A stretch of DNA of 28,219 nucleotides, from positions 10,202 through 38,420 of the forward strand of contig NZ_LATL02000096.1 in assembly GCF_000972705.2 (NCBI RefSeq), written 5' to 3'. A model generated the notes under the pieces. It searched no databases. It worked only from the letters and a program-made list of their open reading frames with translations, and was not told the DNA's origin. The DNA is from Limnoraphis robusta CS-951 (GTDB lineage: Bacteria; Cyanobacteriota; Cyanobacteriia; Cyanobacteriales; Microcoleaceae). The translations under genes were made by a program, and so were the position numbers. Positions 14,796-26,244 of the stretch are shown here, piece by piece. Within the stretch, counting starts at the first letter, position 1. Every line of letters begins with the position of its first letter.

Positions 14796-16205
14796 TTACT
14801 TCCCAATACAAAACCGACTGAATATTCGATCTAAAACAGACTCGGTGACTTCTTCTCCGGTGACTTCTCCTAATGCTTGAATCGCTTCTCTTAAGTCTAT
14901 TGTCCAAAAATCAAGAGGCAGTTCATTCTCTATTGTTGTTTTCATTTGGTCTAAGGCAATTTTAGCACGAGTAATCGCAGCAGCTTGACGTTGGTTGATG
15001 GCAATCTCTAAATTTGAGGCTTGCACGTTTCCCGCGTTAATTGTCGTTAAAATGGCTGTTTCTAATGAGGGAATTCCTTTGTTTAACGCGGCGGCTGTTT
15101 TGACTATTAACAATTCTTCTCGGTTGAGTTTGGATTGAACTTGCTGGAGTTTTGACTCTAATTCGTTCTCGGAAACTTGATCAATTTTATTCAGGATTAA
15201 TATTAAGGGACGATCTTGAACCTGTTGATAAATTTCTTGATCACTGTCTGTCCATCCGGCTTCTGCATCTATGGTTAATAAGACTAAATCCGCAGATTTT
15301 GCCACCGTTCGCGATCGCTCTATGCCGATTTTTTCGACTTGATCTTCTGAGTGACGAATTCCAGCCGTATCTAATACTTGCACGGGAATTCCACCAACAA
15401 CTAATTGTGATTCTACAATATCCCGAGTTGTACCGGGAAGATTAGTCACAATGGCGCGATCGCTTTGACTCCAAGCATTTAATAAACTTGATTTTCCCAC
15501 ATTTGGACGACCCACAATTGCCACCTTTAAACCACTTCTTAAACGCTCACCTTTTTCGGCTGTTTCTATTAGTATTGACAATTCCGCAGAAATATGGTTT
15601 ACTTGTGATACAATGTCTGGAACGTTTAGTGGCGGTAGGTCTTCCTCGAAGTCAATCCGGGCTTCTATTTCGGCTAAAACATCCAAACAAGCCGCCCGAA
15701 ATTGGCGAATGGGCGTGGCGAGTTTTCCCTGTAATCCCGCTAAAGCAGCTTGAGATGCCGCTTGAGATTGAGAACCGACCAACTCTGCCACACTTTCGGC
15801 TTGAGTCAAGTCTAGACGGCCATTGAGAAACGCCCGCAGTGTAAATTCTCCGGGTTGAGCGAGTCTGGCTCCGGCTTCCAAACAGAGTTGTAGCACCTGT
15901 TGAACCGCGATAATTCCGCCATGACAGTGAAATTCCACCACATCTTCGCGGGTATAAGAACGGGGTGCCAACATCAACAAGAGCAAGACTTCATCGATGA
16001 TTTGTTGAGTTTGGGGATGGCGAATATAGCCGTAGAGAATGCGATGACTTTCCCAGCGTTGACGTCCGGGCGCATCAAACAACAGTTTAGCGATCGCTTG
16101 GGCTTGACATCCCGACAGACGCACAATACCAACGCTCCCCTGTTGAGGAACAATCGCTGTTGCGATCGCTGCAATTGTTTCACCGCCTGTCCGAATTTCA
16201 GACAT
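14796..16205 (-). CDS. mnmE: tRNA uridine-5-carboxymethylaminomethyl modification GTPase MnmE
   Basis: A 469-residue protein that, with MnmG, installs the cmnm5 group on wobble uridine 34 of certain tRNAs. The N-terminal tetrahydrofolate-binding domain begins [20 protein letters not shown], followed by [10 protein letters not shown] and [16 protein letters not shown]. The inserted G domain has the P-loop [14 protein letters not shown], the switch [14 protein letters not shown] and LNKIDQ. The extreme C-terminus CIGK is the invariant MnmE tail with its catalytic cysteine. I start at ATG 16205, which gives the normal N-terminus; an upstream in-frame TTG at 16247 would add 14 unlikely residues. 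The upstream region is shared with the divergent copper ATPase. Confidence 0.97.
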
Positions 16206-16519
16206 GAGCCGCCCATTAAACAAATCTAGTCTTGATTTTACCAGCAAAGATGTATGTTTCCCAGTAGTAACTGATAAAAACCCGCCCTTGATCAGATGAG
16301 GGGGCGGTTTGATTTACGGTTGTGGGTGAGATTATTGTTAAGCGAACCGGCCCCGACCTCAGAAAGAAACAATCACAAATCTAAAAACTTAATAGAATTG
16401 AAAACAGGTTCAAAACCTCCCGAAGCCTTTAAATTTATTCATTTCGGGGGTAGACCTGAGAACAAAGGAATTGCTAAGATAATCAGCATTATAAGATTAA
16501 TTGTCCATAATTGTTATCT
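16206..16519. promoter_or_regulatory. Divergent promoter region of mnmE and the copper ATPase, with two structured elements
   Basis: These 314 bases hold no supported gene; an open frame over them has no homology and runs into the ATPase in another frame. One hairpin pairs CCGCCC (16282-16287) with GGGCGG (16302-16307), flanked by A and T runs, giving a terminator-like form. The second element is a two-step stem at 16405-16458, listed separately. A hairpin of terminator shape between two divergent genes is unusual and may act as attenuator or insulator. Confidence 0.4.
16405..16458 (+). promoter_or_regulatory. Candidate structured leader of the copper ATPase gene
   Basis: CAGGT (16405-16409) pairs with ACCTG (16454-16458), enclosing CTCCCGAA (16417-16424) pairing with TTCGGGGG (16443-16450), one wobble pair included. 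An alternative small hairpin AGGTT-CAA-AACCT uses 16406-16418 and would compete with both outer stems. The element ends 62 bases before the ATG. A switch between two folds is possible, but no known riboswitch class is recognised. Confidence 0.3.
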
Positions 16520-24659: not shown

Positions 24660-24714
24660 GGCAATGACGGTGAGATGGGGTCAGCCGTAGAGGCTATATT
24701 CTATTTTGACATCC

Positions 24715-24736
24715 TCTCCGTCGTAAACAACGGAGA
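24715..24736. other. Right-end hairpin of the IS element
   Basis: TCTCCGT (24715-24721) pairs exactly with ACGGAGA (24730-24736) around an 8-base loop. In IS200/IS605 elements such subterminal hairpins are bound by TnpA and, on the tnpB 3' side, overlap the guide (omega) RNA. About 43 bases lie between it and the tnpB stop. Confidence 0.6.
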
Positions 24737-24857
24737 TTCCAAACATCACTATTTGGGCTTCCTCTTTCTATGAGTTGACTTACAAGGGTTGGGTTTCCCC
24801 GCCCAAGCAGAGATCAGTCTCTCGGGAGGCGTTAATTTCCATCTGCCCGACGGTATT

Positions 24858-24967
24858 TTCAAAACAGATATTAAGCGGAAAAACGGATTAAGCTACGTGT
24901 GAGAAGCCTAGATTTATGCGTTTTACAGTCAAGTTAATCCGTTAATCTATTTCTTATCCGTTTCTTG
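24858..24967. mobile_element. 110-bp MITE-like element, copy A, near the tnpB 3' end
   Basis: Flanked by the direct repeat ATT (24855-24857 and 24968-24970). Deleting the element and one ATT restores LKQLSN-TVGQMEINAS, the normal TnpB C-terminus. Ends share the core AAAC(A/G)GATA in inverted order, and an inner inverted pair, AACGGATTAA (24882-24891) and TTAATCCGTT, gives a nested hairpin. It has no coding capacity. Confidence 0.8.
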
Positions 24968-25838
24968 ATTTGATAACTGTTTAAGTGCAGATTTTAGAAT
25001 GTTTTTGGCGGCATTTTCATCTCGGTTGGATGTGTATCCGCAGTGAGGGCATTTATGAGTTCTCGTACTGAGAGTTTTCACAACCTTTTCACCGCAATTT
25101 GAGCAGTTTTGAGACGTGTATGCGGGTTCAACGGCAATCACCGGAACCCCATAAATCCTCCCAAAATACTCCAACCATTCTCTAAATCTGTACCAAGCAG
25201 CATCATTAATTGATTTAGCTAAATGATGATTTTTAACCAAATTGCGTATCCGTAGGTTTTCAATCGCTACCAAGTCGTTAGACTGTATGACGTGTCGCAG
25301 CTCATTTACAAACCCAATCATTACGCCTGCGTGAAACTCTTAGATACGCTTTCCCTAACCGATTTCTGGCTTTTGTACGGTTTTGACTTCCCTTTTTTGT
25401 TCTCGATAACCGACGTTGCAGCTTTTTAATGCGCTGTTCGTCTTTCCTGAAAAATCTTGGGTTTTCTATTTGATTGCCACAAGAATCGGTGTAGAAATGG
25501 TTAAGACCTACATCTAGCCCAGTTATTTTTCCTGTTAGTTCTTTATTTTCCTCTCTGGTATGATCGATTAAAAATTGAGCATAATACCCATCATGTCTTC
25601 TAATCACTCTCACTCGTTTGATTTGTTGGAGTTGATAGAAGTGGAGATTTCGACTGCCCCAAAGTTTAAATGTACCTGCTTGAAACTTGTCAGTAAACGT
25701 TAAATAGCGTCTATCCTCTGAAAGTTTCCATCCCGATGTTTTGTATTCAACAGATGCTCTAACTTGATATTTTTTAAACTTGGGAAATCCTTTTCTACCA
25801 GGTATTTTTTGCCGACAATTTTGATAAAATCGTTCAAT

Positions 25839-25948
25839 TTAAAACAGATAGGATAAGGATTTAACGGATTAAGCTATCTGTGAGATGCCAAGATCTATGC
25901 GTTTTACAGTTAAGTTAATCCGTTCTTCCGCTTCTCTATCCGTTTTTA
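25839..25948. mobile_element. 110-bp MITE-like element, copy B, in the tnpB 5' third
   Basis: Flanked by the direct repeat AAT (25836-25838 and 25949-25951). Terminal inverted repeats TTAAAACAGATAG and CTATCCGTTTTTA match at 11 of 13 positions. Over the central 62 bases it differs from copy A at only 6. Its end supplies the TAA that truncates TnpB after AERAWASI. Same orientation and same length as copy A. Confidence 0.82.
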
Positions 25949-26244
25949 AATGGATGCCCATGCTCTTTCTGCGTGTGCTTGTCGAGCCATAGAGTTGAGT
26001 TGGTTTACCCAGGGAAAACTCGGGTTGTCTGACAGCAGTTTGCAGTAGGCATAAGCATCGTTGCGGCTTTTAACTTGACCATTTATCCATGCTTTGATGA
26101 TGCTGTTACGAACAAACCTACCAGTACGGATAGCTTCGTCTAGCTTTCTGTACTGGTATTGGGTTCCTTGCAGCTTCATTTCATACACAAGCATAGATTA
26201 TCGGCATCGAGCCACGATAAACTTATGTTAGCATAAAATAATCC

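Follow-up and report, generated by a model that had tools for sequence, protein, structure and literature searches.

Two foldback elements in one tnpB gene

The window analyzed here, a 28,219-nucleotide stretch of DNA from Limnoraphis robusta CS-951, contains two units of 110 bp lodged inside one IS200/IS605-type tnpB on the minus strand, which raises the question of what these units are and how they came to lie there. Both are symmetrical, precisely inserted and members of a family, and one of the two sites is also occupied in a relative, Lyngbya aestuarii BL J (hereafter BL J). The best explanation is probably that they are non-autonomous foldback mobile units of a MITE-type family, inserted separately and precisely in one tnpB. 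The features concerned are as follows.

24858–24967, plus strand: element 1, a MITE-like foldback in the 3' end of tnpB, splitting LSN from TVG (site 1); empty counterpart, BL J C66
24882–24943, plus strand: core of element 1, flanked by AACGGATTAA / TTAATCCGTT
25839–25948, plus strand: element 2, a foldback of the family of element 1, splitting S-I-E-R at about residue 81 of TnpB (site 2); empty counterparts, BL J C116 and C147
25863–25924, plus strand: core of element 2, flanked by AACGGATTAA / TTAATCCGTT
24947–25321, minus strand: C-terminal fragment of tnpB (PF07282), ending within element 1 with the tail ..NQETDKK
25302–25613, minus strand: middle fragment of tnpB (PF01385), in a frame different from that of the C-terminal fragment
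25946–26194, minus strand: N-terminal fragment of tnpB, truncated by element 2, with no Pfam match alone, identified by aligning it with the tnpBs of BL J

An earlier note on this DNA had described two 110-bp units in the same orientation with 56 of 62 core bases identical. Re-measurement by script gave the same figures, and 88 of 108 aligned positions were identical over the full length. A 26-base core pattern, with as many as three mismatches allowed, matched twice in the window and never in 100 shuffles. No transposase gene was found inside the elements, where the open reading frames of at least 80 aa were pieces of tnpB; the elements thus resemble MITEs in their size (110 bp) and in carrying no transposase gene. 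The Rfam search gave no match to the elements; in searches against plasmids and phages, the matches fell on tnpB and on one end of the transposon, with none to the elements.

Element 1 substitutes only the last 24 codons of tnpB. An additional frameshift lies between the two elements, where the frames at 25302–25613 and 24947–25321 are out of register, and the window tnpB is broken by element 2 together with this frameshift. Elsewhere in the window, the gene at 14796–16247 was 84% identical to its match in BL J, while the other long matches reached at most 75% (60 of 61 genomes of the family matched). A sub-threshold Rfam match to HgcC RNA (24693–24821, minus strand; 25.7 bits against a cut-off of 50, E 0.002) covered the transposon end, which is the expected place of the TnpB guide RNA.

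Inverted repeats and conserved letters

The earlier description of each element as a nested double hairpin held for the outer and inner repeat pairs and was incomplete: a third, central pair was present, and the whole 110 bp formed an imperfect palindrome. When each element was aligned to its own reverse complement, all three pairs were common to six elements. The inverted repeats were real, in that both window elements on both strands folded better than 200 of 200 shuffles (z-scores of -3.2, -3.2, -6.8 and -5.2 for two elements on two strands). Among four BL J copies that were folded, L008 likewise exceeded all 200 shuffles and L002 was matched by 2 of 200, while L001 and L005 folded less clearly (matched by 16 and 48 of 200, respectively).

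Each arm carried the conserved repeats AAACRGATA and AACGGATTAA, which makes the element a near-symmetrical foldback. The outer AAACRGATA pair constituted an imperfect terminal inverted repeat with 78.6% of cells paired. The seven aligned rows had AAA..GATA in common, together with almost the whole inner AACRGATTAA / TAATCCGTT, and inverted pairing in the alignment comprised 79.7% of cells compared with 30–45% after a slide of one to three columns. In helix 2, eight of the 10 pairs were invariant. No covariation was detected in the aligned family rows, the score being equalled by 291 of 500 shuffles. The repeat letters were therefore conserved and not compensated, which favors putative DNA-binding sites in the arms rather than a selected RNA fold.

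The order of the parts within the foldback may vary among copies. The spacers of element 2 fitted the site-1 elements L001 and L002 better with the arm order reversed, a weak signal (z of 3.6 versus -0.4 and -0.3), and its core, unlike its spacers, fitted the site-1 elements in the same order; C52 (L005) also fitted the other copies better when reversed. These patterns possibly reflect core inversions within the foldback. We make no claim that the core of element 2 is inverted with respect to its arms, since such an inversion is not tracked by the diagnostic base in the outer repeats.

Precise insertion, empty sites and target duplication

The earlier note took the restoration of TnpB codons upon removal of each element with one repeat copy as proof of precise insertion with 3-bp duplications (ATT and AAT). 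Excision indeed yielded an open frame at both sites (..LKQLSNTVGQM.. and ..AWASIERFYQN..), as in the natural empty sites that alignment with the BL J tnpBs supplied for both positions. At site 1, C66 reads ..ACGGTATTTGATAGCTG.., and at site 2, C116 reads ..TTCAATTGATGCCC.. and C147 reads ..TTCGATTGATGCCC... Insertion was demonstrated by these empty sites, whereas the 3-bp duplications alone are ambiguous and no proof. The absence of element 1 from C66 and of element 2 from C116 and C147 contradicts the possibility that the elements are an integral part of the IS, and the claim of two separate insertion events was supported. The direct repeats beside the elements are listed below.

24855–24858: left direct repeat of element 1, ATT(T), the fourth base falling in the element as first drawn
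24968–24971: right direct repeat of element 1, ATTT
25836–25838: left direct repeat of element 2, AAT
25949–25951: right direct repeat of element 2, AAT, followed by G in place of the T of the two BL J empty sites

The duplication at site 1 is accordingly 4 bp (ATTT) instead of 3 bp, and that at site 2 is AAT only under the assumption of a silent change at 25952 (G), because T stands there in the two empty sites of BL J. At site 1 of BL J, the direct repeats were TTTG...TTTG in C9 and TTTG...GTTG in C116 (TTG). Inserts simulated without any duplication gave apparent repeats of at least 3 bp in 5.9% and of at least 4 bp in 1.9% of cases; if the ends are left free, repeats of this length often arise by chance. 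The intergenic BL J copies C52, C50 and C4 showed at best 3-bp repeats at chance level, in a test that covered these three of the five intergenic copies. Target duplication at the tnpB sites is likely rather than proven.

A separate palindromic insert of about 51 bp was observed within the tnpB frame of BL J (L045:1546–1597 and L043:325–376), near the place matching element 2. It adds about 17 residues, KKRCDLAASQAARGSAPR, to the intact C116 TnpB, and one similar stretch was found, in a Stanieria plasmid.

Distribution of the family

The exact 20-base core pattern occurred at two places in the genome-contig collection, both in BL J, and the double arm motif occurred at seven places in the BL J genome compared with none for the reversed-pattern control. 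Two of these places (C9 and C116) are at site 1 of tnpB, three (C50, C4 and C52) are intergenic and well kept, and two (C73 and C129) are intergenic and decayed. Judging from their translations, the genes on either side of the C50 copy are what we take to be nrdA and nrdB, and those beside the C4 copy are presumably coxB and coxA. With two copies in the window and seven places in BL J, five of them between open reading frames, the claim of a MITE-like multicopy family was supported. BLAST with element 2 recovered four of the seven BL J places.

We then searched with a covariance model, R1, whose seven source elements include five from BL J (C9, C116, C52, C50 and C4); these five match by construction. 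Beyond these five, R1 matched C129 (E 0.01), C26 (E 0.35) and C73 (E 0.72) in BL J. C26 was dropped by eye, as it had no motifs, and C73 was retained despite its worse E-value because the double arm motif was present. Among 388 sampled genomes of the order, five were matched: the match was strong in BL J (E to 4e-20) and weak (E 1.4e-5 to 8e-4) in G380, G354, G211 and G074. Among 386 sampled genomes of the phylum, the two matched were BL J and, weakly, G211. The two samples overlap, and both searches were strictly filtered. Matches of the core pattern in three viral contigs (L040–L042) were attributed to chance, since they had one common surrounding sequence and no arms, as was L009, which had only 26 bases in common and no arms. 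Among the open-licence literature, including a text search of repeat strings, no paper on this element family was found. The elements form a narrow new family of small mobile elements in Lyngbya-like cyanobacteria, of a kind already known.

The weakly matched genomes contained foldbacks of their own. A two-unit AACGGAT pattern gave 185 + 293 (478) matches in G380 and 100 + 150 (250) in G354, counts that include nested matches and both arms, compared with none for the reversed-pattern control. About a dozen places read in these two genomes were foldbacks with mostly two to three AACGGAT units per arm, very variable middles and overall lengths of about 60 to 970 bp; loci with such foldbacks are L102–L110, L061, L062, L065 and L067–L071. 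The first and last units are about 20 bp apart, which resembles the window family in spacing and does not imply homology, and R1 matched these genomes weakly (E 1.4e-5 to 5.4e-4 in G380 and 1.2e-4 in G354). Unlike the window family, these foldbacks are far more numerous and have clean units, and no duplication was seen by eye in those read. No Y1 transposase gene was found beside them in the loci scanned, and the 971-bp unit L102 of G380 had no internal open reading frame longer than 109 aa. In the foldbacks L063 (G211) and L064 (G074), the arms consisted of repeated units of the ACGGATTA and GGATTAACA types, which may point to a wider class of iteron-armed repeats.

Recurrence at site 1 of tnpB

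The C9 and C116 tnpBs of BL J hold an element at the same codon as element 1, which is thus not unique to the window locus. The C116 TnpB had an intact frame of 398 aa with both Pfam domains, its last residues being supplied by the element, so that insertion at site 1 need not break the tnpB frame; the C9 and C66 tnpBs were frameshifted. The three filled tnpBs (window, C9 and C116) had different neighbors as far as seen, C9 stopping at a contig end, and so seem not to represent a single orthologous locus.

We compared the identity of the elements with that of the tnpB 3' bodies, using tests that were chosen after the data had been seen and that excluded gap columns. C9 and C116 were identical at 104 of 108 element positions (96%) and 365 of 436 tnpB positions (84%; Fisher p = 2.7e-4). 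The corresponding values were 98/106 and 363/435 for window element 1 and C116 (p = 0.02), and 96/106 and 371/436 for window element 1 and C9 (p = 0.16, not significant). The empty C66 tnpB was identical to the filled C9 tnpB at 410 of 436 positions (94%). The site-1 elements (n = 3) were mutually 91–96% identical, and only they were close to each other: element 2 showed 76–81% identity to these three and at most 77% to an intergenic copy, in reversed orientation, and the intergenic copies reached up to 79% identity to the site-1 elements. Given these distances, the statement that young copies all lie in tnpB holds for site 1 only.

Two readings account for this recurrence. In the first, to which we give an even chance, one ancestral insertion at site 1 was carried by the IS and homogenized by gene conversion, and was lost in C66 by precise excision or conversion. 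The shared codon in three tnpBs with different neighbors, as far as these were seen, is consistent with such a history, and so is the GCTA (not GATA) beside the element in both C9 and C116, where C66 looks mosaic. However, the conversion tract would need to stop no more than about 6 bp to the right of the element, a side on which C9 and C116 differ immediately, and the duplication register in the window differs from that in BL J.

In the second reading, which we consider unlikely, these small mobile repeats prefer tnpB, with site 1 as a hot spot where separate insertions have occurred in at least two copies of the gene; the report on SMR-A offers a precedent (PMC3119063). Independent hits would explain why the C9 and C116 elements, and likewise those of the window and C116, are more alike than the adjoining tnpBs, although the comparison of the window with C9 was not significant. 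They would also suit the direct-repeat register (ATTT in the window versus TTTG in BL J), the emptiness of C66 despite its near identity to C9, and the fact that the three known copies with the highest mutual identity lie at site 1 of tnpB. The common GCTA flank of C9 and C116 and the mosaic C66 are instead expected from one converted insertion. Moreover, element 2 resembles the site-1 copies no more than it resembles some intergenic ones, and thus gives no sign of recent activity aimed at tnpB; five of the nine copies are intergenic; and genic insertions survive mainly in dispensable genes, which alone would enrich for tnpB. We lean tentatively towards conversion over repeated insertion at site 1, where the data give no more than a hint of a favored landing site.

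Nature and mobilization of the elements

Each arm would present two ACRGATWA-type motifs about 21 bp (two helical turns) apart, and these paired motifs may be the binding sites of a transposase supplied in trans. This transposase would probably be a DDE enzyme that leaves a duplication of 3–4 bp, and an autonomous partner would carry TTAAAACRGATA ends. The earlier note had proposed looking for a full IS with matching ends; two limited pattern searches in BL J found none. All seven places with the double motif were family members, none of them an autonomous element. The single motif occurred at 35 places versus 28 for the control, with no inverted pair within 10 kb, under a pattern that required extra flanking bases and, being stricter than real ends, loses true ends.

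Movement by a Y1 (HUH) transposase as a REP/REPIN-like repeat, with no target duplication, would agree with the 26 Y1_Tnp matches in BL J and with the uncertainty of the duplications. A single arm of the family is not a tagged hairpin, however, and the 30 Y1 places scanned out of 33 in three genomes (23 in BL J and seven in G380 and G354) showed isolated AACRGAT heptamers only and no arm arrays. This route is less likely than a DDE-type transposase acting in trans, and we regard it as quite improbable.

Guide RNAs of IS200/IS605-type elements lie at the 3' end of tnpB. Site 1 adjoins this end and both window elements form a strong hairpin, but the idea that they belong to the transposon as a conserved component with a regulatory or guide-RNA role, and are not mobile inserts, is contradicted already by the naturally empty C66 tnpB and by the intergenic copies elsewhere in the BL J genome, and with neither covariation nor an Rfam match it is highly improbable. 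The elements are probably MITE-like and moved in trans.

Comparison with known systems

MITEs such as the cyanobacterial Nezha (PMC10969869) are like the window elements in being short and multicopy, in having terminal inverted repeats and no transposase gene, and in inserting precisely into genes. Unlike them, the window family has second and third internal repeat pairs that make the whole unit a foldback, and its duplication is uncertain. REPINs and REP-BIME (see PMC3733652) share the organization of short inverted-pair repeats in intergenic DNA; in contrast, the arms of the window family are not tagged hairpins, and no scanned Y1 gene was flanked by arms.

SMR-A of Haloquadratum walsbyi is a repeat of about 110 bp with prominent inverted repeats and unknown mobilization that occurs in IS605-type transposons (PMC3119063). 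It was reported there without target duplications and mostly outside the transposase frame, in near-terminal palindromes. Of 192 element-in-element events in Haloquadratum, 104 were SMR-A in PATE or IS605-type elements, and in the same table 30 of 31 MITE-in-element events were in these targets, so that these targets are not specific to SMR-A (PMC3119063).

The window family is a narrow cyanobacterial addition to the very small mobile repeats, and both filled and empty sites of it occur naturally. It may be a bacterial counterpart of the haloarchaeal SMR-A, a foldback that repeatedly enters IS200/IS605-type tnpB with a hot site at the 3' end and either restrains or rides along with a transposon that codes for an RNA-guided nuclease. 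We hold this to be doubtful, and our estimate was lowered slightly because element 2 resembled the copies at site 1 no more than it resembled some intergenic ones. If the preference for tnpB is true, IS605-type transposons would be parasitized or silenced by small repeats in bacteria as in haloarchaea, and insertion at the 3' end would provide a natural test of how much of this end TnpB and its guide RNA need.

Like SMR-A (PMC3119063), the window elements are about 110 bp long, have prominent inverted repeats and lie inside an IS605-type transposon. Unlike the archaeal repeats, both window sites are within the tnpB reading frame rather than in near-terminal palindromes, and five of the nine copies are intergenic. 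SMR-A of Haloquadratum is the nearest published parallel that we have seen.
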